Shown here: positions 4,376 to 43,769 of the stretch, in pieces | Numbering within the stretch: the first letter of the stretch is position 1 | Layout of the letters: each line of letters begins with the position of its first letter | Assembly (NCBI RefSeq): GCF_910592395.1 | Contig: NC_088312.1 | Location: forward strand, 9,610,001 to 9,674,000 | Source: Lineus longissimus | Lineage: Eukaryota > Nemertea > Pilidiophora > Heteronemertea > Lineidae | Length of the DNA: 64,000 nt | Direction of reading: 5' to 3' | The notes under the pieces: model-generated | Seen by the model: the letters and a program-made list of their open reading frames with translations, nothing else | Told to the model about the DNA's origin: nothing | Database searches by the model: none | Made by a program: the position numbers and the translations under genes

Positions 4376-4986
4376 CGCTCTTTCCAAAGTGTCACATCTT
4401 AAGTCATTTTGGCTTTGTTGGTTGTACTGCACTCTGCAAAAGAACGGACATGTCTTTCTTATTCATTATCTGTAGTAATCTATCCTTTTCAACAAAGACA
4501 AATAAAGCCCAATCAAACTAATGACTAATGTGCATACTCAGAAGATGTCAGAACGCCCAAGCCGACTTCGCTTGCTTAAGCATCATGACTGATCAGCGGT
4601 TAAACTAACTTCTACGAAAAGTCGTACACAACAGAAAATTGAACGGTTCACGGAGTACCCAATTCCTGACAGTTTCTTCCTGATCACTGCTTTGCAATCA
4701 TGTGGTTGTGTTATTAGAACCCATTGTCCGACAACACAACGGAATTCTTCACAGTGCATGCAACAGGTGAAACATGTCTTATCTCGGACACTTAATAACT
4801 AATAGTTAGAGCAATGGTTCGGATCCTATTCGAGCAGTAGCAAAAGTAAAGGCATTTTACTAATGGATGTGCAGATAAATTTTCGAGAAAAGCGGCAGAA
4901 AATTGGAAAAAACTCAAAAAAGAGAAGCAACAAGTATTTACATTTACTTCCTGTTTACTTGCGCCTGCGTAGTCAATGGAGCCAAA
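4376..4986. promoter_or_regulatory. Shared divergent promoter interval, STK40 / MRPL19
   Basis: The start codons of STK40 (-) and MRPL19 (+) are 611 bp apart, head to head. The interval must hold both 5' UTRs and both transcription starts. No TATA box in a convincing place was seen. The promoter call is inference from geometry. Confidence 0.5.
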
Positions 4987-7285
4987 ATGGCAGCCTCCAT
5001 GATCCGACGTGTGGCTTCACAATTTTTCAGAATTTCGCAGAATTCTTGTACGTGGTGATATTTTGAGATTCGAAAATATATCTGTGTAGTGTCCACAATC
5101 ACCAGGCCTGTAAAGATAGTCCTTTTTTCCGAAGATGATTGTGGAAATCGGCGTTTTCAGTGCCGGGAGTTAGAGGTCAATCACTGTAGTGTAAAATGTA
5201 CACGAAATGTACTGTGGGACTAGGCCTACAGGGCGTCCCAAAAAAAACACCGCCCACCTTTTTGCCGACGACAACAAAGAGAGCGTCTCGTCAAGAATCA
5301 AGTGTTTTTCTTCTTGTTTGTCAATTTGCGCAAATCTAGAGAAAAACTTTCCTCTGTAATTCTGACTTTTGCTTGTTAAGTGGAGACTGAGTCCGAGGGG
5401 GCCAGACAGCTCCGGCAGCTCAGCCTGGCACAAACAGGTACAGCTCATGAGCTTGCTCAAATCATCTATGCCACAGGACGTTCTCATTGGGTATCGGAAC
5501 GAAAGAACACACTACATTCAAACATTGCCAGCAATATTTCACAATTTTGACGGGACGATTTGTTATTTTTCATTCATACAGATACCCCAGCTAGAAGTGT
5601 AAGAAAATGGTCGAAAGCTGACAAGAAGGAGTATGTGCTTGATAAAGAGCTGGTGGACAAGTATAGAAAGACGCCACTCTCATCAACACAAGAACAAAGT
5701 GAACCAGAGGAATCTGTGAAGATATCGGTCCCAAACGATTACAGGTAGCTAAAACTTTGACTTTCATCACATGAGCTTTTAGGTCATCAATGTATGTAGA
5801 AGTTTGAAATGATAGATTGTCCGAAGTTGTTCTTCAAATCATTTCCCTGACAGAGATGACAACATCGATGTGGGAGCCTCTTCTTAATATATTATACCCA
5901 TTTCCTTTCATTTTAGATATGTCTATCCAGAATTCCTCCCTAATCCAGACTATAAAATACGAGACCGCTTATGTGAGAAATTAGAGAGAAGAGATATGAT
6001 GCGGAGGAGAGGAGTTATAGATATCCCAGAATTTTATGTTGGTAAGATATTTTTAGTCTTCTTTTAGACAATTGTTTATGCCATTCAAACAATAAAGTTG
6101 GACTTTATCTCAAGAATGGAGACTTAATATGACGTTGTTCATCTTCTGTTCCGTTCATATTGATTCTGTACATCATATCATATTGTTGTTTAAATTTAAA
6201 CTCCTGTGTTACAGGTAGTATTTTGGCAGTAACTGTGTCTGATCCCTATGCACCTGGCCAGACTAATCGGTTTGTTGGACTCTGTATTCAGCGGAATGGA
6301 TATGGACTACGGGCAAGCTTTATACTCAGGAATGTTGTTGATGGAGAAGGTAAGGAGATAACCCTTTGTCAGCAGTGCGAGTCTGTCATGGCTCAGTGTC
6401 ACACGACCTTCCACCCAATCGTTAGACTTGCTCAGTTCATCCCAAATCTAACTGGAATGATGGAAGTTGAACACATAGAACATGTAGCAAGGCAAAGAGT
6501 GCTACTAATTTTGACAAATTTTTTCTCCAGGTGTTGAGATTCTGTATGAATTGTACAATCCAACAATCCAGAAGGTTGACGTGCTGAAACTTGAGAAGCA
6601 TGTGGATGATGAGCTGTTTTACCTGCGCGATGCCCCACAGGAGCATAGCTATATGCCCTTTGATATGGACCCAGTGCCTTTTCAGAAAGGAGCACCAGTT
6701 CCTGTCAGCACAAAAAAGGTTAGTGTGGTCCTATTGTAATGTTGAGTTGTCTGACTGGAGATTCATCTGGTGAAAATTGATTAAAATGTTATGTGTGACA
6801 GTTATAATGCCCTTGAGATAGTGACCCTCCACTCATTTCTTTCCTGTTCCGGATGATTTTAAAATAATATGATAAAAATGAGTGAAATTTCCCGACTTTC
6901 TCATTAATTGTTGTTTGCTAATCAATTTCAGGTTTTACTGAATCCAAGACCCTGGCTAGAACGTTGGGAACGGGCATTTCATCTAAAGGGAATTGAACTT
7001 CCTGAAATCAAAGACACTCTTTTAAAACGAGCAGAGAACTTCCGAAAACCAAACGAGCGTTATGATCTTATGAAACAATACAGGGAAGGTGTCAATGAGA
7101 CAGAACAAGAAATGATTTACAAGGAGGTGCACCTTGAACAGTTAGCTATTGACAATAAGAAGAAAGAGGCACAGAAAGCTGCTTTACAAAAAGCAAAGGC
7201 GCAGTCGAAAGTGCGACGAAAAAAGCGAGCTCCAGCATCAGGAATGCCGTATGGTTTAGAAAACACTTCAACAAAACGAAAGTGA
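4987..7285 (+). CDS. MRPL19: Mitochondrial large ribosomal subunit protein bL19m
   Basis: Seven exons: 4987-5047, 5381-5437, 5582-5744, 5917-6041, 6215-6349, 6531-6718, 6932-7285. All borders are GT-AG and all phases agree, giving 360 aa. The N-terminus (MAASMIRRVASQFFRI) is basic and amphipathic, as expected for a mitochondrial presequence. The L19 core is clear: YVYPEFLP, the RRDMMRRRGVIDIPEFYVG stretch, ILAVTVSDPYAPG, FVGLCIQR and FILRNVVDGEG, then ELYNPTIQ and LYLRDAP-like (FYLRDAP) and PRPWLERWERAF. It is longer than the human protein I recall (about 290 aa). Much of the extra length is a Lys/Arg/Gln-rich C-terminus ending near RRKKRAPASG. It works in the mitoribosome. AATAAA at 7601-7606 fits its 3' end. 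Confidence 0.95.
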
Positions 7286-7600
7286 TATCATTTTGTGTGT
7301 GATGAGGACATTGAGGAAAAATAGGCGTAGATTGTGGCAGCGGAACAGTAGATTTAGCTGCCTCCTTTAGGGCTGAAAGACTGCAGGTGTTGCAGTTCTT
7401 AACGGACTTTCTTGAGAGATCTTTGCTTATGCTGCCACAGAGGTTAAGTAAAGTTGAGAAGGGGCTAAATGAGATTTAACATGTTTGCAATGTTATATAG
7501 TGTAAAGGAGGATTGTCCAAATATGAACATTTAATGCTTTCCATATCATGTTTATATGAAAACAAGCTCCCATCTGCACAACATTTCAGTGGATATAGGA

Positions 7601-11282: not shown

Positions 11283-14200
11283 TCACACTGAACTCTGCTT
11301 ATGGAACTTGACCGCACCACTTGGAGAAAGGCCACCTTCACTTTGGCTCGTTGTGACAGTATTCTGAAATGTCTTGACCACATTGGGCTCAGGCAGGGGT
11401 GGCAACTTAACTTGATGGTTTGGAACACTGGGAGGTTTACCTGCAAGAAGGGAATAAGCTTCTATATGAAAACAGGGTCAAAGGTCCTGAATGGAGGTAA
11501 CCTTGAGTGTTACTCTGAATCACTCGGTCTCAGAACTGCATGGCCAGCTGGCTTTGTCTCCCAATATTAATCTGAAACTGATGTTATTAGTTATCTCAGC
11601 ATTAATATAAAACTTAAAAGGAGGGATAAAATCTCAAATGATGAAAAATAACTATTACTTCACATGAAATCAAGACGATTTACAAACTTAAAACTAAACA
11701 TTCAAATTATATAATATCAGCAAGACATAAGCATGATTCAAAAGCAACTTTAAAGAGGAAAACTCTGAATTCCAAGTGAAATTTGGTGGGGTTTTAATTG
11801 AATAACCTGGTATTTGAAATAGCATGAGCCAGCCAAGCCAGGCCAAGTGGCGACCAGCAGTGAGATCCACTTGCTGAACAGAACTGAGATGGAGGTGCAC
11901 TACTTGGGGTATAAACTTGGGGTGAAATTCGTTTTAGCACTGCTTTGTCTAAGGGTATGGGTGTGGGTTTTATTTTCGGCTGCCAGACACACGAGTGGGA
12001 AGGGTATGGGTGTGGGTTTTATTTTCGGCTGCCAGACACACGAGTGGGAAGGAGTCTTATGGAGGCATTAGTTTTGTACAGGAAGAAAATGCATCAAACT
12101 ATGAAGAGTAGAATGAGGCATAAGGCAACTACATTGCCAAGAATGGCTAATGGTTATGGAAAGTGTCAACCAATCCCTGGCTAGTGGAATGAAGTTATAA
12201 ACACCAAGCGGTTGAGTTAGGGGAGATGGAGGTATTAGCAGAGAGAGCAGTCCAAGGATTGGACCTGGAACACCCAGCACTGCTACTCACCCGACAAAGA
12301 GAAGTCGCCCATGTTACCATTATGGATAGATAGGCTGTGTAGACTGGGCAGAAGCAGACTCCCCTGGAAACAAAGGTCAGAAGTCAGAGGTCAAGGTCAG
12401 AGTGTTTCAAGGTCATGATACTTATCTATACTTTGATTGTTTAGAGAAATAGGCAGGTTACGCAGTAGATCTTGATATGTCAATGATACACATTGGAGAG
12501 AGAATGAATGAATGACTTAGAAAGAATGGCATCAAAGAATGCTTGGTTATTTTGCATTTTTATAACAAAATGTCAGTAAAACCGTTAGATTCATATAAAA
12601 TCTATCGTCATCAAGAACACGCTAACACATGTTGATCATCAGGAACTGATATCGTCAATCACAGTAATTGTTGGAATTAGATATGGTGATTCGGAAACAT
12701 GCATACTTGCAAATGCTCCTAGACAATATTGATTGAACATTTAGCTTCACATCAAACACCAAGGTACATGGTACAAACCAACTGATTTGAAATGTGTATG
12801 TCTATTGCTGTTTGAAACACTCTGACAAACACCAAAAGCTATGAAAACTGACAAATTAGCCCCAAAGCAGACAGATCAAGAAATCTCTTGAACCTGTAGT
12901 TACAAAATGCTTGATCATTCTCAAAATAAAAAATATGTCTACCAAGACACCCATGGCATGATGAAACAAAATATCCTAAGCTAATAATTATCAACAGCAA
13001 AGCAACCAAAAGTTAAACAAAGCAAGGGCATGACATATGCACAGTGCAATGTGTGCATATGCACAGTGCAATATGTGTGCTTAGTGTAATACATTAAATG
13101 AATGGCTTGGGACTTGCAAGGGGGAGAGATACTAATACTATACAACAGAATGAGGCAAAGCTTTGGTTCTTGTTGAAGGTTCCTCTTCTGTATGACTTGA
13201 GTGAAAGATGTACAACAACAACTACAACTTTTACATTACAATGGCCCTCGGTGAAAAACATCGCACAATATCATTATTGTTATTGCTTGCCATCACTATT
13301 TCTCTGAAGAAAGTTAGCCTATTGAGAAGTATTTGTGTCCCTTTTGAAGGAAAAGAGCAGAGAAAGGTTTAGCATAGATTCACTGTTTATAAAATACAGG
13401 CTGTATGTACAGCACCAACATGTCATACAGTAGAAATTACAATAAGTGGCCGCCGCACAAAATCAGAAAGGACCAAGATTTTTATTGATGCATGGTCACA
13501 GCCAATACAAGTCGCACTTCATCTTTGAAAGGGCCTTTTGTGTTCAATTTCTGGTAACTGTCGCAGAGGGTCGGTCAAGCCATTCAGGAAACACCATCAA
13601 CCCAGCCTCTAATGAAATTGAGGACTGTACCTACTCATTCAGTGGTTTGAATGGATTTCTGCTTCATCATCATGTATGAATAAAAATCTAGCCCTTTTCT
13701 GATTTAGCAGTGGCACTCATTGTAATTTCTACAGTACAAGCACAGGTTTGTCTTAAGGGTCATGCAATGTTTTCAAGGACAGTTTCATACAGGATTGAGT
13801 TGCATTTATAGGCTACCTGATGCTAATGATTCGTTACTTGCAGCGTTGTCTAATTGTTGATCTAGATGAGGAAAGAACACAAATTGAAAGATGAAAAAAA
13901 TGTTAGATCGGTGTCAGGTGAGAGGTGAGGTTCACTTTAGTAGCCACTCTTGGAGTAGAAGAGAAGACAACACATCTCTTATGAAGGTGCTGTCCGCATA
14001 AATGACGATTACAAGCGTGCACAGCCGCCATGGCTGCCACAGAATGTAACGCTCATTTAAACAACGGTGTCATCAACATTGGAAACGGTGCAATCATTAA
14101 ATGACAGTAATATTTTCAACTACTATGGTTATGAGGAACACTACAAAAAACATTAGTTGTGTCGCATTGCATGTTATGACTACTTTCCTCACTTACTCAA

Positions 14201-17200
14201 AACTGTCATTTCAATTTCAGGAGAGTCATGTCGAGGACCTTTTGAGAAAGTAAATGGATATTCAAGTCACAATAAGAAATTCATGAGTCCTGCACCCAGC
14301 CTGTTTTCGTCCCTTGATTCAAATGAGTAGAATTTGTAATGGCTGCTTGTAAAGAACCTTGGCGGCGTCCCCTAATCCACGATACATAATTATCAAATCT
14401 ACCGAGTTTGACTTGTGACGAAAATAATTTGAAATGCAGCAAGTATTCCTCATCCAAGAGATGTCCAATTCCAGTCACCAGCAACAGGCCAATGCAATTC
14501 ACCCCAAACATTCCGCAGCCATACCAAGCACCCGTAATCCTCACACCACACATGACTTACATAAAGAGTCACAAAACAATCTTCCCTACAAATTTGAAAA
14601 TGATACTGAACATGTGGCCATGGCCATATCTTTCACTTGCCCTAATGGCTGTGTGAACAGGCAAAAGTTGGGTGATATCGACCACATAGTAATCTATGAC
14701 TAACTTCAGCCAAAAGCATACAGAACCACTCCTCTATCAAAAGTGCTGTTTTGGGGAAAAACGGATGACCTGGGGAAACGGATTAAACCTCAACCCATGC
14801 AAGCAGTCAAGCTTTCACTTACAATGATAAACATAACTCTTTGTCTCAGGGTCATATGTCACTTTTGGGAGAGTTAGAACATTTGGAGTATACAGCATGC
14901 ATCGGAGAATTCGATGGCTCAGTTGACTATCCAATGACTGTGCGAGTGGTGCACTTAATGATGTGAAATGACATTCGAGGCAGGATTTAAAGTGGTTTGT
15001 TTTGACTAAGTTGATTTTCAAGGACACTGTCACAAGAAGTATAATCTTAGTCCCCCCTACATTGATATTGGTGAAGAACACTCCAATTACGGTAAGTGAT
15101 GGTCAGTAAATTCTGCCAGTGCTACTGACTATGTGATGGTGAAAACTTACCATTAATTGGTGGTAATCGATTATTTGAGTGCGTCTGATAGCCATGGGGA
15201 TCTACACTGCCGTGTGGTGTGGCAGAACCATTCCGATCTGAAGAATTGGACTGAAACAATAAGAGAATTTCAAATCAATATCACTGAATTATGAATGAGA
15301 AAGAAGGAGCTTCCTTAAAATGAGCATTGAAAACACTGCTCAAATGGTAAGTGAGGAAAGACAGAGAATTCAAAGCCTGGATTTCAATCCAGGAAGCACT
15401 TAGATTCAATTCTATTGTGTATATGGATCAGTGATTGACACCTCATCATCTTTATACCACCAAGGTTTTTGCATCTTATCAAGACCCCAGCTACACTACA
15501 AGGGGGTACAAAGTATGAGGTTCAAGATGACACCTCACCTGTGAGTGTGTAACCGTCGTCGACCCATAGTTCTCATGCCGCACATTCACAGCATTACTCT
15601 CCTTGATACCATCAGTCGTCACATTTTCGGGTAGGCTGAGTACAGTCTGCGGCTCTGGAACCACAAATCCTCTTCTATCTAACAAACTGAAGAAAAAAGA
15701 TAACAAAGTTAATTATATTAAAAGCATTTTTTGGATTGTAATTATCCTGTTTACCTATCCAAGTTGACTGGGTGATTTTTGTCTTACAGAAATCGATGAG
15801 AGTCATGTGATTCTGGCTGCCTGCATAGTGTCTTCTGTTCCAGATTTGCTCATGTCACGAACAAGTCTGTCGATTCCCTTAGTCAGTATGCATGAAAAAG
15901 ACTTCTTGTTGACAGAGAAATAAGCTATTCCTTTGAGTTACAGTTGATCACAGTATTGTAAGTCTTCTTCAAAGCTTCTTTACAGGAGCTCCTTGGCAAA
16001 TAAAACAAGTGAGAACATGTTCCACTCAAAGACGCAACCTCTGACAAAATTATTATTGAACCGAATTGTTTCATATCTTATGTGTACTTACCTAGGGGGT
16101 GTAGGCCCGCATAACACATTACAACAATTCAACATCACTGTTCCCTTCGTATAAGGATTAGCATTATCTTGACCACGTTTAGCAGAAAATGTGCCTTTGA
16201 TCTGCAAATAGAGGAAGAACATGTACTGGTACTGGTATTGAGATGTGAAAAGAGTGGCAAGTTAATACTATATTACTACAGTATAACATAGGACAGAAGA
16301 TAGGACATTTCTAACGGCAACAGTTTTGCAAAAGTGAGTTTACAAAATCAAATAGGTTGGGGACGGTCAACCAATAAGTGCATGATACAAAACAAGATGA
16401 ACTGAAAATGATCTTTGTTCAATCTTTTCTCTTGATGACAGTGACATGGGAAAAGGTACTGCATGCTCAAACATTGAAGGATCTAAACTTTTTCATTCTT
16501 TTGGAGTTGCATGAGTTCTGAATATTTTGGGTAGCAATCCTGTAGTGTACCAGGGGTCAGCAGTAACCATACGTCACATACCAGACACCATAGTGGGATG
16601 CTACAATATGGATACCATCTACCAAGTTTCATACAACTATCATAACTACTATTACCACATCGAAAAATTACATGTTGACACCTACAATTATTTTTATCCA
16701 AGTACCGATCTATAAACTAGTTAGCCAGCCATCACTTCATCAGTCTACCCAAAAAAGAAACATTGCTAAGTGTAACAGAAAACAGCTTGGCTGGAAGCTT
16801 TTGTGCAGTGCTGTGTGTTGTCAGCAGAGCCAGGTCATGTGTGCACACTCACTGTTCAAAGTTAGCACATGGCGATCGCTCTGGATGTGATTCTTATTTC
16901 AATATTCAAAGGGTTAAAACTGGACTGGAGGTAGATTTTAGTAGAAGTAGATATAAAATTGATAACAGGCATCAGTTAGAGCAAAGACGGAATTGCGCTC
17001 AAGAAAGGGGGGAAGTTATTCTGTGCTGACCACACAGTTGAGTGGCCTGAACAAAAATTGCATGTTTTTGTAATCATTCTACTTCTAGCCGCCTTGAGAA
17101 TTGTGTCACTCCTTTGCCTTTTTCTCAGGCATGTATCTTTTTCCACCACAAGAGCATTTCTTTGAAAACTTTGTTAGAAGTAACTTGAAACAATTAAAAT

Positions 17201-20200
17201 GCAAACACTGAAGAAGCTCATTTACATAACTGCGTAAAACACCAAAGCAAGCAGTTAAAGCGAACATTGCAATTTTTAAACATGCACTTAGATAATTTGA
17301 AAAACCTGCATTCCGCTGTTTTTAGGAAATGAATTTTCTAACCATCTCGGGGGAAAAAGCTATAAAATTAACATTCGGAACAAGAAAAATTAGGGATTAT
17401 TATATCAAAAGCATGCATTGGCATGAAAATATTGTTGAGATGTGATTACAAGGGGTTTTATCTTTTTTACCACCAATTCAAAGCCTTCCGTGACCAACCA
17501 TTTTACAGCAGTAGCAAGTTTTTGCAATCAACCATCCACACACCCCACTCCAGACAATAAAGGCAAGGTCTTCAGATGGCAGTTAACATACTGTAAACCT
17601 CACGTTTGCTCCTGTATTTTAAAGATAGCTTTGCCCCGCAAAGATGTTCATCTATCAAGAATGGCCATATTGAACCAGGTAAGAAATTTCCATGAAAATG
17701 TAAAATTTTCGGCATTTCCATTTTCTTCATCAATGACTGCAAGGATAGTCACAGCCATGTGAATTGCACTCATTAAATCTCCATAATGTTCCCCGAGAAA
17801 AGTTTAATTTTGGACATTTGAAGCAAAGGCAGTGAGGTTCACAGTACCGGCATTTTATAACTTACGTCCTCATTGGTCGAATGGGCTTGACATATCAAGT
17901 TTGTGTGATAGATCATGAGACCAATCACAGTCCATGATGACACAAACGACACCAGGCCGACTAGGATGGTGAGCAGGTTAAGGTCATACTCAAAAGAACA
18001 ATTTGTCAAACTTAGAGTACACAACACAAGACAACACAAGTAGATGATCCATTATAAAGTAAGAATTGATGGATAGTAAGCTTAACCCATGGAACCTTGC
18101 ACATTTGAATACACGTAGGCCTAATATTTTTTAAATATAGAAAGGCTGTTTCTTGATATGAATGAAATCAGTTGGGAGTACCCGGTAAAGAATATTTCAC
18201 ACTTTCCACAGCCCACTGCTCTTAAGAGGGGATGTTCAAGGTGAGGGATAGTGCAAGCAAACAGGCTCAAGCTCTGATCCAGCGCAAGTATGGACACTCA
18301 GGATGGGAATATTTACAATGAAGGATGGTTAAATACTGTACAAAGAAGTTTTTAAATCATTGTCACTGAGAATCGTTGTATTCAGGGGCAAGATAGAAGT
18401 TGTAATCAAATCAAATGAATGATACCGGTACTCAAATGCCAATAAATCAGAACTGCACCAGATTTTGGAATCATATTTGATATCATCATATTTTTTCAGT
18501 AGGGTAATCAGGATGATTTGTTTTTTATGCTGGAAGTTAGTATTAACTAATAGGCAGGTAAGTTTGTCATAAGGGTTTGATGCATAGGATTTGCTACTTA
18601 TATCATGAGTCTGTTGAACTTCAGTTTATAACTGAAGACCAACCGGTAGCTTTTATCTACAGGCGCAAGCGAGATTGATGCAGACTAGATGAGAGACCTC
18701 TACATGTATAAGTTGAGTTCACTAACTTACACTCTCATTTGTGGATTTTTCTGAGCACAATAACATGGTGTGGTAGACCATCATACCAATAGGACTCCAC
18801 AGGGAGATAAATACTATGAGAATAGTTATAACACTGCACTTGGTTAAGGAATATGATCAACAAACGCCTTGACAAATAGCTAGTCTGTATGTCGCATGAA
18901 ATAGGAGTTAGAGCTGTGCTTACACAAAGCAACTCTGGCGGTCATTCAAAGGAAGCAGGCAAAAAACAAGAACATTTTCAGTGACATTCAGCAGCCTTCT
19001 AAAGAAGGTAAAGAGTAAGACTTCAAAGGCAGCCTAAACCACAACTGACAGTTTACAGAGGATTTGAAGCAATTCAAGACATCTTGTGTTAGATACATGC
19101 ACACACTTACACTACAGAAAGTCAAACAAAACAAAAGGAGCGGGTGCAAAAAGGTTAATAATAGTTCTGATATCTGGACATCTGTCAGTTTCCACTACAA
19201 GGTCAAAACATGAAGGCTTTAGTATCCTTATGTTTTCTATGATTGAAAACAAAGATCCTTTGAGAGTTACAAGATTCAAACAGAGTCAGGAGTAGAACAC
19301 AGATAGAATATTCACACATCTTGGTTAATTTTCACACTACGGTAATTCTAATCTATGAGTCCTGGGTACTAATAGCAAAAGAAATCGCCATCCTTCTCTC
19401 TGATAAACATGAGAGGCTGATTGCTGTTTTTTTGTTTTTTGAGTACCCAGACCATGACAGGACCTGTCGATCAGACTTACATCTTCATTTGTTGAGATAT
19501 CTTGGCAAATGAGGGAGGTGTGAAATCCGGCCATACCGACTGGGGTCCAGAATGATATAAATGTAATGAGAGCTACTACCACAGTGCAATATGTTAAGGA
19601 ATGAACTAAAATATAACAAAGCAAGCAGCAGGCATTAAAGCAAGGAGAAATAAAAATCGACTTGAAACAAAATTATAAACGGAACAGTTTAAAATGTAAA
19701 TTCAGAATAATTCTATTTAATTTCTCTCATATTCTATAACAATGACCTGATTCTTTTCACTTTTAATTGGGTATGAGGACTACAGGAGACAGCATCACCA
19801 TTGTATTCGAGCGAATGGTTGGTATAGTTTTTACACTGAATACCACCAAGTAGCATTTCAACTTCACAAGGAAAATGGAGACGAAATCAAGGAAACGATG
19901 AGCAGAAAAGATTAGCAGGCAAGACAACGTCATAAAACAAACTTTCTTCTCCGATATCCATAACAAATCAAATGTTTTCTAGTGGCCAAGTTTGGGGTCT
20001 ATCAGGAACAGAGGTTGGTACACAAAATTCACAAGAGAGGGCAATTCTTTTGAAACGGGTTAAGGACACTGAACGTTTTAGAAGCAAATAAAGTGTTGAA
20101 GTCAGAGCAGAACATGGAGATGCAAATGCAGAATGTCAGAAAAACAAGTATCAAAAGCAGAAAATGAAGAGGACGCTGGAAGCGGGAAAAGAGAATTTCA

Positions 20201-23200
20201 AAGGTGAAATTTCATCAAAATACAGTCAGCAAGGAAACTCGAGCAAAACTATGAAGAAAGAAAATGAAAATAAACATTCTCTGGACTAACTGAATACAAA
20301 TCAGTCTACTTTTTGTATAGGCTGTTTCATCTAAAAAATTTCTTGTAAAAACAATTTTCTTTTGTAAACCTCCAAGGACTATAAGTGTGAAGCATTCTCC
20401 CTCTATGTGAATAGAAATAGGTAGGTCGCAATAAAGTTTCTCGCTGACACCATTATTGATAATATTGGTCAGTCCATGGAAATTTCCATTCTTAAACTTG
20501 ATCAAATACTGTTTCTTTTGTTATGCTCATCCAGAGAATATGAAAATTGAGCTTGATGCGCAAGGACTTAAACTTACATCCTCATTTGTTGATATACCAG
20601 TAGCGACCAGGAAGGTATGGAAACCCGCCATGCCAACCATCTGCAGTATGACGCAGATGTCTATGATACCAACAATACAAGTGCGACGCAAGTTAAGGAG
20701 GTTTAAGATGTTATTTTTATAAGTGGAACTCGGATGGCTAAACTTGCAAACAATACGAGAAATGAGAACATCTTATTGAAGAGGCTGGACAAAGTCTACG
20801 CTTGAAGAAACAGTCAACTTTCTTGAGCAGGACTGTCCATGTCACCAGAGCAAACCCCTAACCAACAAATCAAAACGAGCAAATTATGAAATCAAGCCCC
20901 TGGGAATTTGTCAAGAATGACTCCATAGCCAAAAGTTGCTGATCACCCTAGGCTAAGTCAAAGCCAGAACCAGGAGGTTGTACAAATTAAGTTACTCGTC
21001 TGATCTTCTTGCCTGGAATCCTCAACAACCAAACACAGAATTCTAAATTCATTCAAGATTACAATAGCCAGGAGACTAGCACTGGGTACATGCAAGACAG
21101 TTCAATACATATACCCGCTTTCAAAATGTAGCAAGTTGTACTCTAAGTCCTCTTAAAGATATTTATTACATCTGATACAGAAAGAGAGATGAGACCAGGA
21201 GAATTATGACATCAGGCAAATCAATTCTTCAGGATATCACGTCTTCATTATGATAGGGGCAGCTTTTTTCCAAATCACACTGTATCTCCATCATTAAACA
21301 TTCGGTCTCCTCACTTTCATCACAGACTCCCACATGTACCAGATATAACAAAACCTTTACGAAACAAAAGTTAACCTAAATATATCCAGTCAAACAATAA
21401 AAAACGTTATCTTATTCTCAAGATCAAGATGACACACACATGCTTTGCACAACAATCATACATGCATTCAGAAATATCAGGCAAGTGGGGATGAGTTATT
21501 CAAGTCCAGGATACCAAGATCGTCACTCACAGGGCCACTGTGTTACATTCATATTGTGCAAATGCATTAAAGGAGACAACTACTCTACTTTCTAAACCGA
21601 AACAGCTCCAGACAACCTTGATTAAATTTGTTTCTGGTACCTCTGGGACATATAGTATATTATCCTCTGTTCACCATCTCTTAATCCATTATTGATACAA
21701 GATATAATCATCCCAAGAGTAAGAGGTGTTCAAATCAAGAGAAATCTGCCCAGGAGCAGAATGCCTGCTGAGGGTACTAATCAGATTCATTTGAAAGTCA
21801 ATATTTTAATTGATATTCCTTCCACCACATACCGTATTTTATGGCATTGCATACCAGTAGATTTGTTAGCACCAATCGAGCTGAAGCAGCAGCGAGTGTG
21901 TATCACTTCAGCTTCAAGTACCAATGATGATTGCCTCGGAATTGCACATGAGCCTTTACAGCATTCTTTTTATTCTCCACTACACGCTTTTTCTTCAAAT
22001 TAAGATCAACCCTCAGTTAAATGACTTTTGGACTCCATTTCCAAACCAAATATTTCTCAACTGATAGAAAACAGTTTGGGACAATATTTTCGTTAAGTTG
22101 GATGTTGGATTTAGAAAAGAAAACGAAACTCGAAATTTACACTGGAATAATTTGAATAATGGAAAAGACAATGAATTGGGATTGTTGAACGGACAAAGTA
22201 TCGGATGACATGGTGGATGCAGACTTACGATTACAGGCTTCAGATGGAATGGGTACAACAATGAACAACTAGGCACAAACAACAAGGCTAGTACATGATG
22301 CAAATACACACAAATAGTGCAGGAGTCAGACAACAATGACTAAAACAATGACTAGACATGTTCAAATGCAAGGCAAGAAGGTCAAAGGTCATGATACTCA
22401 CATCTTCATTGGTTGTTTGGTTAGATGTTGTCAAATACGTGTGAAATCCCGCCAAACCGATAATGGACCAAATGGAAAAGAAACAGACTATCGCTTCTAA
22501 TATAGTGGCAAGGGATTAAGGATAAATGACAGCACAATCACTGAAGAGAGGCTAAACTTTGACAGGGACCATAAACCTAAACATACCCTGACTTTTAACA
22601 TCTAAAGAGGGGAAGAACTAATATGAAACAGCACCAAACGTAAGGTTGAAATTAAAGATTCTGAAAGTGAAGTGCTTGCTATGACCAAGCAGTGAAACAT
22701 GATGTATATCATCAGCCACATAGCACTTTGTAAAACTCTGATTAGGTCCTCAGGGAGTCGCATTGCAGAGTATCTGAAATATGGTATCTAAATGGACAGA
22801 TACCAACTTGAAATGGACAATACAGGTCTCTGTCAGTGTCAAACCATGTGTTGAAGTGGCCATTTTTTGTTCAAAATAGTAAGCCATCTGAAGTTATCAC
22901 CATTTGCATGTCGGCCAGTATGTTGATACTATACATGAAGAAACTACTGGAGTTGACCAATTATCACAATGGTACAGCACCAACTCTATTCTAAGACTCA
23001 AACAAACCATGCAATGATTTCTGACGATTACAGACACACCAAACCAAAGAAAGAAAGCAGGAATCATGAAATCTACAACTTGAGGAATATGTCTAGTCTA
23101 AAGTGCCCCACAACTGAGCCATTAAATCACTGTGATTATGATTGTATGTGACAAAAATCACCGGTTTGCAGATGTCATTGCAAGTGCCCACAACAAGAAT

Positions 23201-26200
23201 CGAATCGCCACTACTAACGATCAATATATAATTCAGCAATGACCTGTTTTATTCATAGACGAGAGATCTTTCATAACAGATATCAGCGATTATAATTGCA
23301 GGTCACGGTGACTTTAATCACTGTTTGCGTGGTGTTTAACTGATAGAGGAAACAAGACCAAAAGCAAGGAAAATATCCAGGAAAATAGCCAGTGACAAAT
23401 TAATGTACCCATCTGGGACTCCACTAGTCTCCATTACCATGATAAATGGGACTAAAACATCCAGCGACTTGTTGTCTCTACTTTGCCTTAGTAAAAATTC
23501 CCTCATTTATAGTTTAGTATAAATAAAGGACCATGCACTGTTAGTATAGGTAATTCCCATGCACCCCCTCCCACATGGCAACTGTCATTAGGTACATGTA
23601 GCACATGTAGCACTTGCAGGCAAAATTTACAGTCACGCTGCCTTCCGACGACTAAATATTTAGTAGATTCACACACAAACACACAGTACACGATTATTAC
23701 TATGCTAATGTGAGAATTGTGTTAAGACAGGCAACAGGTGCTCCAGCTTGATTAGATGATTTACAATAATGCAGACAGGCACAAAGGCTTATAACATACA
23801 TGTACACAGAGATAGAGTAGATCATAGAACTCGAGACAACACTCGTCTATCGCCAGGATTTAATCACAAATACTTTTTTATCACAATCAGAATTTGCACG
23901 AGCCGGGAAAAGATAATGCAAAAGAACACTCAGGCTAGAACAGAACTAGAATAGAATCTTGAACAAGGACTGCAGACTCAGATCAACTAGCTGGTACAGA
24001 CAGTGGCTCCTTTAAATGATGCTAAGTAACAGTAGTTCATGGTGACTGACAGAAGATACAGAGACAACCTGAGGTCATTTACTAGAGGACTAGTCTCCAT
24101 ACATGTAGCAATCATCAAACCTTTTAGATCAGATACAACCACATCTATCTTAACCATGTATCTATACTGCTCCAAATGTAAACCTATTTGGATTTCAATC
24201 ACCAGTTTTCATCATACAGCCCCAAGAGGATATATAGTAGATTCCACAATAAACACACTAAACCATTGAATAGAAACCAGAACAACACTTGAGTATCACT
24301 GAACACTCACGGCAAGATAGCTCCTATTTCAGTGTCAACCTCATTACAACATTCACCAACATTCTTCTACATCATTTTTTAATGGAATTTATCATATATC
24401 GTACAGTGCAGGTAGTCATATTCACAATTGCTATCAGGGGATAATTTTCAAAGCAGTCTATGAAAACTCTAATTCTAAAGCCTAACTATGTGTAATAATC
24501 ATATATTATTTGTAAAGGATATCTAGCAGGTGAGTCTCGCATCGCATGGAGAAAATTCTTTTCCTGTGCACCTGAAATTATATGGAAAAAACTTCAAACA
24601 ATGAAATTACAGTGGAAACCTTACAAAACATTGCTTTAAGTACACTCTGGGATTGCCAGGTCAATCCAACAAGAAGATGATGTTTTCAAATCTCTTTTTA
24701 TCAAACCTACATGTATTAAGACAGAGACATTTGGAGCCAGTTCACCTGAACAACTTCTACTTGACTACTGCTTAGAGCATACAGAACTGACTCACTCAGT
24801 TGCCCATCAACTTGGAAGGCAATTTTCCTCGTGAAAAAAATATAACACAAGGAATTATACTTACTGAGTATAAGATGTGTGATGACGCATGCAAATATGT
24901 ATATACACAACACGGAGAGTGATAGGATGAACATGTAAAAATAACGATAATTCCTCTTGCCGACACAGTTGCCAACCCATGGACAGTGGTGATCGAATCT
25001 CTCTGAAAGAAAAGAATGAAGATGAGCATATAAACATACACATGAATAACAGCTTACATGAAAAGCAGAAATGCGAAAGAAGACGCTCTGTCCTCATAAA
25101 TTATTTGATGAGACTTGCTGACACTTGTTAAGAGTAATTACTGCCTAAGTTCACCAGTCGTGTTGAAAATAACATCTCTCAGGGGTGTTTGTTAGAAGTG
25201 ATTTATACTTACCAACACAGTTATCACAGATGCTGCAATGCGAGGCCCTAGGAGGGCGGAATATTTTACAAGTGAAACAGTATTTCAATTTAACAACTTG
25301 ACCACGGATGACGACTTCTTTCGTGCGAGGTGGTGGCCGATACGTCCCGGGAGACCCAGCAGCAGGGATTTCTAGAATCAATACAAACAAATGTTTCAGG
25401 AGAAAAAAGATAATATGTGACGCAAATTGGCAAGAACTTTGCAACTCTATCCATCTGAACCAAAAAGTCACGACTGTTCCACCATGTCCTTGCCTCAAGA
25501 AAAGTTAATGTTGGCCAATATTCTGTATTCATACATGCATCCAGTTTGTCACAATTACTTTTCTGGCATAACAACATATTATAAAACTAAAAGAACAAAA
25601 TTTCTATTCCCAGCAGCAACAGTCTATTGTCGGCTGCTTCCATAAGTTGATACATTATGTAGACTTTTTCAGTTTATGTATGACAGTGGGAAAAAATCTG
25701 TGCAGTTAAATAGATTAGAAGCACAGTTAGTCAATCACATCTTGCGGATGATGAGTCACTTCTTCAAGGCATGCGCTGGATTTTAAAGGTTATCCGCCAT
25801 TTTAATCAAAAACCAAATTGTTATTATTGCAAACAGGGCATTATTGATAAGACTAGAATACAACTTCTTTAAAAATTATATGAACAGAGTAAAGGAATCC
25901 ATTTGTTTATAATTCAAGCAGAGTTAGAAAATAATTGTAGGACAAACTATTAAACAGTGATAACCCATGTTGGTGAAAGTATTCAGTTAGATGACAACAA
26001 AATTGAGCACCTATTTCCGCTCATAAAACATAGGATGATGATACATAATGCGCGCATAAGAGTGCCACAGCCATGTCAGGTTTTTTAAAAGTTAGCCCAT
26101 AATACAGTTATTGTCAATAGTCATGACAGTGGGATGGAACATTACAACTGCACACATTACATGAGAAATAGATCCAAAAACTAGACCCTTTGGAAAACCT

Positions 26201-27427
26201 TGCCCCAGGCCTAAAGTGTAAAACAAGCTTACCTATTTGTCTTTCTAAGTCAGCTGCTTCATCAGGGGTGGCCCTGGGTATCACCCCTGGATCACTGAAG
26301 CTTGTGCGAAACAATGTAGACATGACGAATATGAAGATTAGACAAGCTATCACTGGTATGACTGGTGATAATTCCGTTGCTAGATATGGACAGCTGTAAC
26401 AGAATTGAAAATGAGATTAAGATTTCTCCCTGTATTTTATCATTTGACATTTGAAAGGAAACTGAGCGAAGCTTCTGTTCAGAATAGTAAAACCACTGAT
26501 AATAAGTAATTGATAAGCTGCTTCCTGATCATCCTGGCCTCCCAACTCCTACTAGCCTACATACGTACTGTCAAGTGTATTGCAGATCTGAGGACCCTAA
26601 GATGTGCAACAGACAACTTTAATATTTACTCTGAATCAAAATGGTTATTGTTTGCCGTTAGGCGTTGGTTATGTTGGTGATAGGCGTGTTCTAACAGGTA
26701 TTTGTCTAGATATTTTAAACATTTCCCTCTCCACCAATTGCACACTAGGGATAGGCCTAGCCCTACCAGTGCCAGTACTAAACAAGAAATGCATTGGCTT
26801 ACAATTACATATCTCTAGGATCTGGTCGTAAACAAGCATAGTGAGACGTGAAAAAAGTTGAGTAGGATGACAAGTAAGACGCTTGAGTCAAAATGTAACG
26901 TTGATGCTGTCAACCTTACTTAATTCTACCATAGCTTGAAGAAGTTACGGACAACGCCATATAATATGGTGGTCATCATCATATGATTTAGGTGGCACTT
27001 CATTAACATTACAGGATGGCGAGTTACAAAGGAAAGCAATGACAACACCAATACAAAGACGAGAACCGTCAGTGACAGGGTCGTCCACACATAAGGGATG
27101 ATAAGCATGGTAAGTGACCTGCGTTGACAACGACAACGTCAATGTGAATGAGTGTCAATCAACTTTTAATTTTACTTACTCGAAGGCAAAGAACAGGCCC
27201 GATGTTACAATGATCAACACACATGTCAGATAGAATATTCCAGTCTGCCGGGCCATCATCACTCTGCCATTGCAGCAGAACTTGTTCCGGCCTGGGAATA
27301 CCTGCCATTTTCGTACAGATTTTGGCATCTTTGTGAGATCTTCCTCGGAAAGTTTGGTAGGCGATTCAGTCAAAACAGGAGTGTAAGACGAATCTTTCAT
27401 GGACACTGGAAGACTTAAACTAGACAT
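11283..27427 (-). CDS. ZDHHC14: DHHC palmitoyltransferase of the ZDHHC9/14/18 group with five alternative TM4 exons
   Basis: Shared exons on - : 27180-27427 (ATG), 26233-26393, 25213-25371, 24865-25002, 24523-24571, [one of five 103-nt exons], 16092-16201, 15539-15686, 15151-15250, 11283-11440 (stop). With any one alternative exon the phases close to 457 aa. Seen: [13 protein letters not shown] then TM1 (about 58-80); TM2 and [30 protein letters not shown]; the Cys-rich zinc domain [18 protein letters not shown] with DHHC at 193-196 and [16 protein letters not shown]3; [10 protein letters not shown] loop; TM4 with TTNED (282-286); NCCNVLCGP; a Ser/Thr-rich cytosolic tail. The family transfers palmitate to cytosolic cysteines at Golgi and plasma membranes via the DHHC Cys. 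Head to head with TMEM242, as in human, which favours ZDHHC14. Most introns are GT-AG; the one after 24523 is U12-type. Confidence 0.92.
11951..12048. repeat. 49-bp perfect tandem duplication
   Basis: Two identical 49-bp copies (11951-11999 and 12000-12048), each starting AAGGGTATGGGTGTGG, in the last ZDHHC14 intron. The identity implies a recent duplication. Confidence 0.95.
12291..12363 (-). other. Possible 73-nt frame-breaking cassette exon (weak)
   Basis: It is flanked by TTTCCAG and GTGAGT on - . If included after 15151 it would add about 14 residues (starting GESASAQS) and reach a TAA, truncating the cytosolic tail. Splice signals only; no family support. Confidence 0.2.
14823..15056 (-). 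CDS. Possible 234-nt cassette exon in the ZDHHC14 tail (weak)
   Basis: Between shared exons ending 15151 and starting 11440, this stretch is open, has acceptor-like GTAG, a good donor GTAAGTGAA, and phase 1 on both sides, so it could be included without breaking frame. It ends near [16 protein letters not shown]. No known homologue in the family tail; it may be a chance open intron. Confidence 0.18.
17866..17968 (-). CDS. ZDHHC14: Alternative TM4 exon E
   Basis: 103 nt. Branch GACCTTAAC (17985-17977), acceptor GCTCAC; AG+C again gives Ser. It reads [20 protein letters not shown], then [14 protein letters not shown], then donor GTAAGT. It shares M-x-Y-HT with exon D and ICQ with exon C, so C, D and E look like a subgroup. 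Confidence 0.86.
18731..18833 (-). CDS. ZDHHC14: Alternative TM4 exon D
   Basis: 103 nt. The branch TTCCTTAAC (18851-18843) is perfect; the acceptor is GTGCAG, so this copy would use an AT-AG border where the others use AT-AC. It reads [20 protein letters not shown], then [14 protein letters not shown], then donor GTAAGT. AGF before His is replaced by MVY and the last residue is Ser, not Asp. Confidence 0.83.
19481..19583 (-). CDS. ZDHHC14: Alternative TM4 exon C
   Basis: 103 nt. The branch TTCCTTAAC (19601-19593) matches the U12 consensus exactly; the acceptor is TTGCAC. It reads [20 protein letters not shown], then [14 protein letters not shown], then donor GTAAGT. It keeps Trp, G-x-AGFHT and the STNE form of the TTxE motif. 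A Pro sits in mid-helix where exon A has Ile. Confidence 0.88.
20578..20680 (-). CDS. ZDHHC14: Alternative TM4 exon B
   Basis: 103 nt, same phase as exon A. The branch TCCTTAAC (20699-20692) is followed 12 nt later by acceptor CGCAC. It reads [20 protein letters not shown], then [14 protein letters not shown], then donor GTAAGT. An Asp lies inside the membrane span and the conserved Trp is Leu, so it is the most divergent in its first half. The half after GMAGFHT is well kept. TTNE has become STNE. Confidence 0.85.
22402..22504 (-). CDS. ZDHHC14: Alternative TM4 exon A (canonical form)
   Basis: 103 nt. Upstream on - is branch-like TATCCTTAAT (22524-22515), then acceptor GCCAC. The exon completes Ser and reads [20 protein letters not shown], then [14 protein letters not shown], and stops at donor GTGAGT. 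It is the copy closest to the vertebrate sequence (LEAVVCFFSVWSIVGL, NQTTNED) and keeps the intact TTxE motif (TTNE) that packs against the DHHC domain in this enzyme family. It lies first in transcription order. Confidence 0.9.
24514..24522 (-). promoter_or_regulatory. U12-type (minor spliceosome) 5' splice site ATATCCTTT
   Basis: Reading -, the intron begins ATATCCTTTA. This is the full consensus of AT-AC U12 introns ([A/G]TATCCTTT). It is the only way to end exon 5 with the correct frame: no GT or GC lies in a usable phase before the in-frame stop. Confidence 0.88.
24523..24571 (-). CDS. ZDHHC14: ZDHHC14 exon 5 (loop before TM4), ends at a U12 donor
   Basis: The acceptor TTTCAG precedes GTGCACAG. 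With the A carried from exon 4 it reads [16 protein letters not shown], matching the loop I recall in human ZDHHC14 (FLNALKDSPAS). It ends in phase 2 (AG), which each downstream alternative exon completes with T or C to Ser. No GT follows; instead the intron opens with ATATCC. Confidence 0.85.
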
Positions 27428-31753: not shown

Positions 31754-34700
31754 TTACATGCAACGGTCTGGTGCGCGTTGTCGCGGTGCAGCCTTGATGA
31801 TGTCATCAACGCGAAGGATCATTTCAGCTGCTTCGGCGGCACTAAGTAGGACTTGGCGCTTGACTTGGAACGATTCACGAATTCCCATCTTCTCCATGTC
31901 ATCAACTGTCCCATCATTCATGTCTGAAACAAGACAGGGAACGCTATTTCAACAAACAGTACATTCACCAGCATCTGAGTTTTATTTTGGCCAACAAGAG
32001 AAATGCATACAGTCAAAGCTTTTTTCAACAGGAACCAGACTTTCTCACGGAAAAGTCCCTGAATACTTTGAATCACTCCACCGAATGTGAGAGCCCAAGT
32101 GAAATGTAAAAGGGCAATTGTAAGGACCAGCCCACTCCCTAACACTGACATAATCACTGCTGCATGTACATACATAAAACAATCAAACAAGTTGTTATTA
32201 GATGAAGCAGAAGCCTTTACTTACTAAGTCCCATTGTCTTTTCTCCAGCAGTGTGAACAGCTCGGAGTTGAGCCACCAAGTCGGCACTGTCATATCCAGC
32301 ATTATCCGCAATTATCGTAGGCAACTGGAAATACAATGTGGCATATGAAGCTATCAGGGTAACCCATCTCAAAGAGCATATGAAGAATCGGGGTAACCCA
32401 TCCAAAAAAGAACTATATAAAGTTTTAAAAAGTCTACAGATGGCATGTCTCCCACTAGAGCTGAAAGCTAAGTATCATCGAAACTTACCGTTCTTAGTGC
32501 CCTGGCGAATGCCTCCATTGCAACAGCTTCTTTCCCAGCAGTCTTGGCAGCAAGGGCACTGACAGCATTGGCCATCAACATCTCAGAGCATCCTGAGGGA
32601 AGAAAGAAAAACGTTCACCCTGAGTGAGAATAACATCAGAGAGACTAATCTTTCCTTTGTAAATGGTACCCAGGGTTGTTAAACAGTATAAATTGCAATG
32701 TTCCAAGCATCTTCCCGATTATTTCTATGAGCTTTTATTCAATCTTATGATAAGTGCTGTCATGTTATCTCAATAGCCTGCGCCAAGGTGTGATAGAGTT
32801 GTTAGTATTGTAGCTTGTCTCCACACTGTTTTAAGCCATGTTATACATTCAATCAATTCTTGCTCACCTCCACCGAAAACCGTCCTCGTTTCTTTCACGG
32901 TCTGCTGGAGCACACAGAGGGCATCATGCAGAGATCTCTCAGCCTCATCCAGAATCTGTTTGGTTGCTCCACGAAGGATAATGGTACAGGCTTCTCCTAG
33001 TGCCACACCTGAAGTGGTAAGAAATACATGTTGATTTCCAGAACGTGGTCAATGTCGCATTGTGATAAGAGTAAACCATATCATTGAGTTCAAAGAAAAT
33101 GGTTTGGGGGCCATAAATACTACAGGCAACCAAAGAAAGAAGGAATGCCAAGAATACAAAGAAATACAAACATTTCCTTCATATTAAAAACATAAGGAGG
33201 ATGATTGATAACTATAATTACTGATTCAACCAGGTGTCCTACTTACCAGAAAATCTGAGAAGTTTATCCTCTCCAATCATGACCTCTTCAATCGCGTCAC
33301 ACGTGCCAAGCTTGACTGTTTCAGGACTGTCGAATGTTGATGTGATTTCACCACCAGTGACAAGGGCTAAGCGTTCCACACCTTCAAAGTCTGCATGTTC
33401 TATGGCCATCACACCGTTATCGGCAAATAATTGTTCAGGGTAGTTATAGATCAGTTGTCTGGAAACAAAAGAATTATATACAATACATTTAAGGAACAAA
33501 ATGAAATCTGGGTAACTAAGCCAAGGCAATGGGTCCTGCTCTCAATCATGCTGACACCCAAGGCTGGAGGTTCATGAGTCATCAAGTGCCTAACTCGACG
33601 ACCAGTAATGAACTATCCTATTTGGTCTCATTCTCTACTGTCAATCATTTGCACATAGTTTCCAGTAACTGAGGGGTCAGCCAAAATGAGCAGTCAGTGA
33701 GAACGCTTTAACTCGAACCTTTGGTACCGGCAGCTTTGAAAGCACATATAGGACCTATACTGACCTGTTGATGAAGACATTGCATCCATGTTTACAAATC
33801 TTTTGCACCTTTTCCTTCATTTTTTCCTTCTCTGCCAATTCCAATTCTGCTACCTTGGAAACTGCATCTACTCGGACTCGGGACCCGAACACCTTTATCT
33901 TATCCGTGTCCATTGGAGTATTGGCAATAAGAATCTTGCAGTTTTCAACTTTTCGGGGTTGGTTAACACCTATCTTTTTATCTAAAAGGAAACCTGTAAG
34001 ATAGGAAATAACAATTAATAAAAGCTTCCCATATATTAGGCAGAACTGAAATGTAACTCAACAGTCAGCTTGTCACGTCTGTGCTTCTTTCTAGTTGTAG
34101 ATGCCAGGTGGATGTGTATGTCAACATACGCATGTATCAGCATTACAAAAGGAAGGAATCGCATCCAGCATGTGTTTCAAACATCTTACCTTCATCCAAG
34201 TACGAGTCAAGAAGAGATGACCCTAGTTTCTTGATAACTTGAATGGCATCTAAATTTCCGCTACTCTTGAGCCTGAGAATGGCATCAACAGCCAATTTAG
34301 CAAAATGGTCTTTGTGGTTGGTCAGGATTTTAGAACTTAATGTGGTTCTGGCGATGTTCATGAGATCTTCACGGAACTGAACTGGGTCAGTGCTGAAAGA
34401 GAATCGCGTTTGTTGTAAAATGAAATACGGAGAAAATTTCTGCTGATAAATACTGTTGAAGCCAGAAATCTGAAAAGGCAGGGTAAACCTGCTTACACAG
34501 GAGATGAGACACTCACCCATGATCCTGCGCAGCTTCAGCGAGAGCTCTTCTGGCTTCATCCGTAGCCTTCCTCCAGCCAGATATGACAGTCTGTGGATGC
34601 ATCTTCTGCGAGACCAACTGTTCGGCTTCCTGCAAGACAAATTATTTATTATGTAGGGGAACCTCCCTTAGCAGACACATTTCTATTAAGGACACCCTCT

Positions 34701-39200: not shown

Positions 39201-40004
39201 TGAGGTATGTACAATACATATTATAAGTCATGTCTTTGTTTATCATATCAGTCCAACCTTGCAAAAGTATTCTGACTCATTGGTATCAGAATTGACTGTT
39301 CCATCAAATGTTATACTCTTAGTTTAAAGTCTGATTTTATTGGGAACATTGCTACATTTTAGACTCAGCTCTTCTGTAATAGAAGACTCTAAAAAGTAGC
39401 TTTGAATACACAAAAATGATGACTGACATCTGTCATCTTTCAATTGTTTCAGGTTGAATTACTGGTAATGCGAGCACTCTCACTTGGCCTTGTAAAGGGA
39501 CACATTGACCAGGTTGACAAGAAAGTCCACATGACTTGGGTACAGCCAAGAGTACTTGATCTAACACAGGTAAATAAACAAATTAAACGCACAATAATCA
39601 CCAATACACTTGTCAGTCCATTCAGTAATGGCCATAGTACACAGCACAAGTTGCTCTGAAATCCACCCGTAATCTAGCAGCTACGCTTGATATTGAACAC
39701 CAATTTTAAGAGCAACTATTTGTGGGCACTTCAGCCTTGACAGACAGTAGATCTCCTCAAGTAAACATTGTGAGTTTGAATCCTTGTTTGCTTTGGACTT
39801 ATCATGCCCCTTGACATCATTGAAAACTCTGTATAAAACAAGCTTCCTTCGTTTGCCGTTAGGTTCTTATGTAGTTTTAAACTCATGTACTTTTATTGTT
39901 TTCAGATCGGTACTATGCAGCAACAGTTGAAACACTGGTGTGTAGATGTGAACTCAATGGGCTTGCTGGTCGAGGATAATGCACATGATATCCTCTACAC
40001 TTAG
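36284..40004 (+). CDS. PSMD13: 26S proteasome non-ATPase regulatory subunit 13 (Rpn9)
   Basis: Ten exons: 36284-36390, 36958-37036, 37306-37396, 37621-37751, 38018-38189, 38398-38477, 38716-38841, 39061-39204, 39453-39569, 39906-40004. All GT-AG, phases agree, 381 aa (human 376). Matches recalled family blocks: [97 protein letters not shown], then [16 protein letters not shown] and [16 protein letters not shown]. The C-terminal half is a PCI domain, which holds together the proteasome lid. The start is set by [11 protein letters not shown] aligning with the human N-terminus. AATAAA at 40303-40308 marks its end. Confidence 0.97.
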
Positions 40005-40078
40005 AGACTGGAAACAATATCATTAACATTAGAATATGATGTGCTGAATGGTTGCCATTGCAGGATTTTGACTACTTG

Positions 40079-40143
40079 TGATCAAGGGGAACTAAAAGCT
40101 TGATCAAGGGGAACTAAAAGCTGAAAAGGGGAACTATAAGCTT
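40079..40143 (+). repeat. 22-bp tandem repeat, about three copies
   Basis: TGATCAAGGGGAACTAAAAGCT occurs twice perfectly and a third time degenerate (about 21 bp, AACTATAAGCT), in the PSMD13 3' UTR. Confidence 0.85.
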
Positions 40144-43760: not shown

Positions 43761-43769
43761 TTAACATTT

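Follow-up and report, generated by a model that had tools for sequence, protein, structure and literature searches.

Five tandem exons behind a single U12-type donor in a DHHC palmitoyltransferase gene of Lineus longissimus: a candidate mutually exclusive array

Exclusive exon choice through the incompatibility of U12-type and U2-type splice sites is already described in print, in the parts of the papers available to us (PMC5740500, PMC8329584, PMC3584512, PMC6717393, PMC6865273). Exons 6a and 6b of MAPK8 and MAPK9 (JNK; 7a and 7b in later assemblies) exclude one another in this way (PMC8329584, PMC3584512), and exons 11 and 11a of TMEM87A and TMEM87B are likewise exclusive at a minor intron, in a tissue-dependent manner (PMC6717393, PMC8329584). 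According to the available text of Hatje et al., five among 629 human exclusive clusters (0.79%) are U2/U12-incompatible (PMC5740500), and a U12 GT-AG intron has been noted in another DHHC gene, ZDHHC8 (PMC2831892). The Dscam-type clusters of insects, as outlined in the accessible part of the source, hold many tandem exons of which one is used (PMC9013439), and pairing between docking and selector RNA sequences is described for exclusive exon choice (PMC6071210, as far as available). Here, we describe a minus-strand gene of the nemertean Lineus longissimus in which one U12-type donor precedes five homologous exons, each flanked by splice sites of both classes. The gene lies within a window of 64,000 nucleotides (nt), the whole stretch of DNA analyzed (C5:9610001-9674000). 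An initial annotation, made from the letters alone, had reported a five-exon U12 array in a DHHC gene at this place; the observation was confirmed, and its exon coordinates were all right. We consider it probable that these exons form a one-of-five mutually exclusive array, enforced by U12/U2 incompatibility together with a frameshift.

Splice-site anatomy and gene model

Directly after exon 5, a shared exon of 49 nt with a U2 acceptor upstream of the array (24523..24571, on the minus strand like all features of this gene), the sequence atatccttt constitutes a U12-type AT-AC 5′ splice site, ATATCCTTT (24514..24522), matching ATATCCTT at 8 of 8 positions. The perfect AT-AC donor proposed for this exon is thereby upheld, and the border matches that of an annotated Lineus protein, P0001, which contains exon a joined exactly at the AT-AC junction. 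Five variant exons follow, all exactly 103 nt long, starting in a common phase (AG before the junction, N after it) and ending in phase 0: exon 6a (22402..22504), the conserved animal form present in P0001, with the donor GTGAGT, and exons 6b (20578..20680), 6c (19481..19583), 6d (18731..18833) and 6e (17866..17968), with the donor GTAAGT. The U2-type GTRAGT donor expected on all five was accordingly found, in the form GTGAGT once and GTAAGT four times.

The U12 branch consensus is TTCCTTAAC, placed about 10-15 nt from the 3′ splice site. Scored as matches to this 9-nt consensus, with spacing measured from the second branch A to the intron end, the branch sites are ATCCTTAAT for 6a (22515..22523; 7/9, 11 nt), CTCCTTAAC for 6b (20692..20700; 8/9, 12 nt), TTCCTTAAC for both 6c (19593..19601; 9/9, 10 nt) and 6d (18843..18851; 9/9, 10 nt), and GACCTTAAC for 6e (17977..17985; 7/9, 9 nt). 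The acceptor is AC in a (22505-22506), b, c and e, and AG in d. Matches of 7-9/9 at all five variants compare with 5-6/9 at seven other acceptors of the gene (exons 2-5 and 7-9). The earlier claim of a U12 branch site with an AC or AG acceptor at each variant therefore stood, while the spacing of 10-14 nt that accompanied it did not: the variants span 9-12 nt, with e, at 9, slightly short of the usual range. Exon 7, the shared exon downstream of the array (16092..16201), has the U2 acceptor ascribed to it, with no U12 branch site (best match 6/9) and with 10 consecutive pyrimidines. In the 17-nt stretches preceding the exons, pyrimidine content ranged from 0.59 to 0.76 for the variants and from 0.71 to 0.94 for the others. 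By sequence, the array combines the features of a mutually exclusive cluster (adjacent homologous exons of equal length and phase) with those of U2/U12 incompatibility (shared sites of opposite class, and every variant flanked by both classes), the AG of exon d being its weak point.

Exon 5 is separated from variants a to e by 2018, 3842, 4939, 5689 and 6554 nt, and these are separated from exon 7 by 6200, 4376, 3279, 2529 and 1664 nt, with inter-variant introns of 1721, 994, 647 and 762 nt. Steric exclusion was considered as a cause of exclusive choice and is unlikely for variants 647-1721 nt apart. Components of the minor spliceosome are encoded in the genome searched (391,118,348 bases in 30 contigs), where three U12 genes (109-112 bits), two U11 genes (97-98 bits) and one U4atac gene (88 bits) exceeded their Rfam cut-offs; an Rfam scan of the window at gathering level gave no match. 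The published assembly is described, in the part of the report available, as 391 megabases placed mostly within 19 pseudomolecules (PMC8593623).

The complete signature, including an open exon of 103 nt, occurs at five places in the 64 kilobases (kb), exactly these exons, compared with a mean of 0.01 and a maximum of 1 in 200 simulated first-order Markov windows. When exon length was relaxed to 60-159 nt, six rows were obtained, compared with a simulated mean of 0.35 and a maximum of 6; the extra row arises from an alternative acceptor of exon d (94 nt). A profile built including the five exons scored them at 75-114 bits and found no sixth or degenerate copy in the window, where the next best place scored -25 bits. 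In the intron separating b from c, position 20065 holds a further U12 branch site, which was set aside, as no exon-like sequence lies behind it. Pairwise identity among the exons is 40-59% in nucleotides and 34-54% in amino acids, and synonymous distance was saturated and not computable for 7 of the 10 pairs. Identity by codon position was 0.52/0.66/0.36, the pattern of constraint at the protein level. Across the genome, the pattern TCCTTAACN{6,12}ACN{90,115}GTRAGT matched 37 places, against 179 for the reversed control; in this weak search for further arrays, whose pattern misses three of the five exons, the sole same-strand pair within 20 kb was exons b and c of this array.

When spliced with variant a, the gene encodes a 457-residue protein identical end to end (457/457) to P0001, an annotation record of RefSeq named 'palmitoyltransferase ZDHHC9-like isoform X3 [Lineus longissimus]'; its 90%-identity cluster has 7 member sequences and a representative labelled isoform X3. 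Exon 1 (coding part, from ATG; 27180..27427) matches the N-terminus of P0001 exactly. Exon 2 (26233..26393), exon 3 (25213..25371; start of the DHHC cysteine-rich domain), exon 4 (24865..25002; DHHC motif and third transmembrane helix), exon 8 (15539..15686) and exon 9 (15151..15250) are likewise contained in it, and exon 10, the terminal coding exon with the stop (11283..11440), completes its 457 residues. All five isoforms match the DHHC family PF01529 at 126-134 bits over protein residues 164-288, and the nearest solved structure is that of human ZDHHC9 (8hf3, 463 bits; next solved structure 193 bits). With this domain and its closest relatives in that subfamily, the gene is assigned to the ZDHHC9/14/18-type S-acyltransferases.

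Protein variants and their relatives

The products would each differ in the fourth transmembrane helix and in the segment leading up to the catalytic TTxE motif. Overall, the AlphaFold model is of poor quality (mean predicted local distance difference test score, pLDDT, 56; predicted template modelling score 0.49), and we relied on it solely for the helix in the region of the exon: it places a helix at residues 250-278, with a pLDDT of 94 for 251-260 and 82 for 261-270, whereas the exon covers 252-286. The initial annotation held that all five exons encode the same helix and TTxE region in one phase; the common phase was verified and the helix is predicted, whereas TTxE is retained by exon a alone, exons b-e having STxE. 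G268, H273, L276, T283, N284 and E285 are shared by the five variants and invariant in the compared homologues, although the pattern by which the block was found already demands T283 and limits 284 and 285. By contrast with a, exons b-e all depart from C259, F261, Y275 and T282 (99% conserved); L269 is changed in b, c and d, F260 and W264 in b, and G271 in d and e, all four being fixed elsewhere. In an alignment to DHHC20, positions 271, 272 and 275 correspond to Ser229, Tyr230 and Trp233, and T283 to Thr241. The available part of a study of DHHC20 reports that Ser229, Tyr230 and Trp233 contact the transmembrane substrate helix in simulations and that Thr241 contacts the DHHC aspartate (PMC10622425). 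The variants may thus remain catalytically competent and differ in the substrate or acyl groove.

Comparison of 13 hand-picked protein pairs from the search list revealed five, each drawn from a single mollusc species, whose substitutions are all confined to the 35-residue block: Mytilus edulis X5/X7 (6 substitutions), M. trossulus X4/X2 (7, with 17 gap columns), Ostrea edulis X6/X7 (6), two UniRef entries of Magallana gigas (5) and Pomacea canaliculata X2/X6 (8, with 31 gap columns). M. edulis X8, present in two further pairs, is a third version, with 7 substitutions inside and 5 outside the block, 38 gap columns and a different C-terminus. Among the remaining six pairs, the block was identical in two, and at least 29 substitutions lay outside it in four (different or unnamed species, or a likely paralogue). 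The search for orthologues in related species that the initial annotation had advised thus found the same block swapped, at the protein level, in five molluscs. Judged from these annotated proteins, swapping of the block extends to bivalves and a gastropod, whether inherited from a common ancestor or arisen more than once, and is not confined to nemerteans; Lineus exons b-e are far more divergent than the mollusc versions.

Nemerteans were represented in the protein search by Lineus and Tubulanus only. Isoform X2 of Tubulanus polymorphus has V261, T275 and A282, departing from the animal consensus like b-e. It was tried as an orthologue of exon e and not retained: identity favors e (22/35), while BLOSUM scores favor c (118) and a (113) over e (107).

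The block was present in 136 of 137 fetched proteins, three of which were flagged for an odd context (P0032, P0053 and P0108). In P0053 (Pinctada) exon 5 is missing and the block is entered inside, and the context of P0108 (Saccoglossus) is apparently natural. The Solemya velum model P0032 is without the usual DSPAS context and reads VSLTLA-TIVEAI before and into the block. Lineus DNA read straight into exon c, across its U12 branch site and AC acceptor, gives SLTYCT; SLT, which is the U12 branch site TCCTTAAC in frame, precedes exons c and d, and the reads into a, b and e, with other spacings or branch sites, lack it. SLT accounts for 24 of 63,339 tripeptides in the fetched proteins, and a T before the block is not a sign by itself, as it also occurs in P0108 and human ZDHHC9. 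The SLT context of P0032 is an indirect sign of what may be an old AC acceptor. As an observation in its own right, the P0032 model apparently reads a U12 branch site and AC acceptor as coding sequence, and such footprints might reveal mis-annotated AT-AC introns.

Proposed mechanism and rival explanations

In the mechanism we propose, the minor spliceosome would link the shared U12 donor after exon 5 to one of the five U12 acceptors, any of which could serve, and the major spliceosome would then connect the U2 donor of the chosen exon with exon 7. For skipping, a U12 donor would have to pair with a U2 acceptor, and for double inclusion, a U2 donor with a U12 acceptor; neither spliceosome normally makes such mixed pairs, and any leaked combination would meet an early stop. 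The U12 donor could be used once: joining a variant x would remove the variants upstream of x, and joining the U2 donor of x to exon 7 would remove those downstream, whereas disagreeing choices would leave a U2 donor facing a U12 acceptor in a transcript that would not normally be finished. Because mixed pairs could not be completed, the two spliceosomes would have to settle on the same exon, for which exon definition is the simplest route, and the choice would presumably be set by exon definition, with U1 on the near-consensus donors aiding the minor spliceosome, together with further regulators. Incompatibility would not in itself select an exon; its effect would be that transcripts with no variant, or with more than one, could not be spliced or would reach a dead end. 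We infer that exons b-e are used, that choice is exclusive in RNA and that the variants differ in function.

Every one of the 32 possible subsets of the five exons was joined in silico. The five subsets with a single exon remained open to the end of exon 9, and the other 27 (skipping, 10 pairs, 10 triples, 5 quadruples and all five together) hit a stop, at codon 273 for skipping and at codon 318 for the other 26 combinations; even the quadruples, in which length restores the frame, meet a stop. The Asn284-Glu codons read AAT GAR in all five exons, and the shifted frame contains TGA, which stops any double-exon product and accounts for the common position. The reading frame is an independent second lock besides U12/U2 incompatibility. 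The earlier statement that incompatibility enforces a one-of-five choice is accordingly sustained in part: the anatomy, the U11, U12 and U4atac genes, the junction in P0001 and the mollusc swaps speak for it, whereas incompatibility does not choose the one exon, the frame also locks, and exon d may leak.

Several observations weigh against this interpretation. Pyrimidine content alone does not tell the two classes apart, the values of a (0.76) and b (0.71) being no lower than those at the U2 acceptors of exons 2, 3 and 9 (0.71); the variant donors match the U2 consensus at 7/9, no better than the other donors of the gene (6-8/9); and the branch sites of a and e reach only 7/9, with the 9-nt spacing in e. 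Taken singly, the motifs are not enriched in the window, ATATCCTTT occurring once over the two strands together (0.98 expected) and CCTTAAY 13 times (15.9 expected). The AG acceptor of exon d is possibly open to U2 use, and the lock may leak there. Some 3′ splice sites are known to serve the two spliceosomes alike, for example in MAPK12 with mutated U12 small nuclear RNA, in the part of the source available (PMC8329584), so that incompatibility is not absolute. Exons b-e were found in no database protein, exon a alone being represented, with the P0001 cluster known by its representative, and the exon e region used alone as a query retrieved no candidate from the protein database. Loss of function in b-e is possible, as these break residues fixed in other animals (W264 in b; G271 in d and e).

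Exclusivity might instead be kept by the frame and nonsense-mediated decay, with U12 sites merely inherited along with the duplicated exon and adding little. Such an account draws on the 103-nt length of each exon and the stops in 27 of 32 subsets, and on the 60% of human exclusive clusters that contain exons whose length is not divisible by three, versus 0.79% that are U2/U12-incompatible, in the available text (PMC5740500). We regard it as unlikely, since U12-type branch sites are kept at all five variants despite only 40-59% DNA identity, and mixed products should hardly form when four of five variants have AC acceptors. Such acceptors are not normally used by U2 splicing. A slightly less probable view is that only exon a, perhaps with one more, is used and the rest are decaying copies: exon a alone appears in a database protein, and b-e change residues invariant in other animals. 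Against decay, all four retain an open frame across the 103 nt without net gain or loss of length, and they preserve G268, H273, L276, T283, N284 and E285 together with their U12 branch sites and their donors, GTAAGT; conservation by codon position is highest at position 2 and lowest at position 3.

Docking/selector RNA pairing operates in Dscam, and competing structures of this kind might enforce the choice here as well. Three regions (the start of the U12 intron, the segment between e and exon 7, and exon 7) were scanned against the upstream and downstream flanks of the five exons, with 12 shuffles of each docking region as the null, giving 12 measures. One of the six mean values lay outside the shuffles, that of the region before exon 7 with the downstream flanks (-20.5 versus a best null of -19.9 kcal/mol), and the four intronic weakest-of-five values exceeded the null mean in strength by 1.3-2.0 kcal/mol. 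The 11 remaining measures, among them the six weakest-of-five values, which require pairing with every exon, fell inside the range of the 12 shuffles. The scan is crude and covers one genome, and with this mostly negative outcome we judge a docking mechanism improbable. The earlier view that RNA docking is not needed fits this result and is not proved by it. An artefact of assembly or annotation is scarcely credible, given that the exons differ at 41-60% of bases and that a genome search with residues 1-372 (exons 1-8), in which only the best candidates were scored, placed all matches of at least 84% identity at this one locus (7 of 37 rows), with places on other contigs at 63% or less.

Neighboring features and comparison with known systems

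The remainder of the window contains several further candidate genes. Protein-kinase-like exons lie at 1600-4462 on the minus strand (PF00069 piece at 2939-3121), behind a frame that we take to resemble STK40. A ribosomal protein L19-like gene at 5000-7300 on the plus strand (PF01245 piece 6133-6534, 22.8 bits against a cut-off of 22) is presumably mitochondrial L19, and CCT/TCP-1 chaperonin pieces at 33758-34667 on the minus strand (PF00118 at 33758-34057 and 34146-34667) are presumably of the beta subunit. On the plus strand, the gene at 37500-40100, which we assume to be PSMD13, includes a PCI-domain-like piece (38947-39324; PF01399, 20.5 bits, below the cut-off of 22). A FAM60A-like piece, followed by an acidic run, is located at 55064-55447 on the minus strand (PF15396, 38.8 bits), and tandem arrays of period 113 (43851-44152) and period 22 (40079-40145) occur within 40079-44152.

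The array could have originated through tandem duplication of an exon bordered by one U12 intron and one U2 intron, its branch site and donor being copied along with it. As each tandem copy would carry both, it would be exclusive from birth, and no docking structure would have had to evolve. Tentatively, and with somewhat less than even confidence, we extend this to the view that the U12 donor serves as a five-way hub, that any exon flanked by U12 and U2 sites is pre-adapted to become an exclusive array of any size through tandem duplication, and that spiralians have used this on the ZDHHC9-type fourth helix, with four radically altered helices in nemerteans and several substrate or acyl-chain specificities placed under the minor spliceosome. 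If true, the minor spliceosome can run a multi-way switch, the retention of a minor intron in this position would have a rationale, and the idea could be tested with a minigene. The exons would also constitute natural helix-swap variants of a palmitoyltransferase in which the catalytic Thr, Asn and Glu are held constant.

The published incompatibility cases that we encountered, in the portions of the literature available, involve a choice of one exon from two, and RNA docking is the mechanism to which large exclusive arrays are otherwise tied. A five-member U12 array, or any in this gene, was not found among titles and abstract openings of the open literature, with the subscription reports (Letunic 2002, Chang 2007) outside this scope. 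In MAPK8 and MAPK9, two exons are arranged in the mirror layout, two U2 3′ sites and two U12 5′ sites competing, whereas Lineus has one U12 5′ site, five U12 3′ sites and a U2 donor on each exon; TMEM87A and TMEM87B, with two exons arranged as in MAPK8 and MAPK9, differ from the Lineus five in the same respect. The Lineus array resembles the insect clusters in its row of many tandem exons, one of which would be used, but gives no clear signal of Dscam-type docking/selector pairing. The mollusc ZDHHC9/14/18 proteins differ in the same 35-residue block, but in two or three conservative versions 5-8 substitutions apart. The principle is therefore known for two-exon cases, and five alternatives on one U12 donor are, as far as our searches reach, new.

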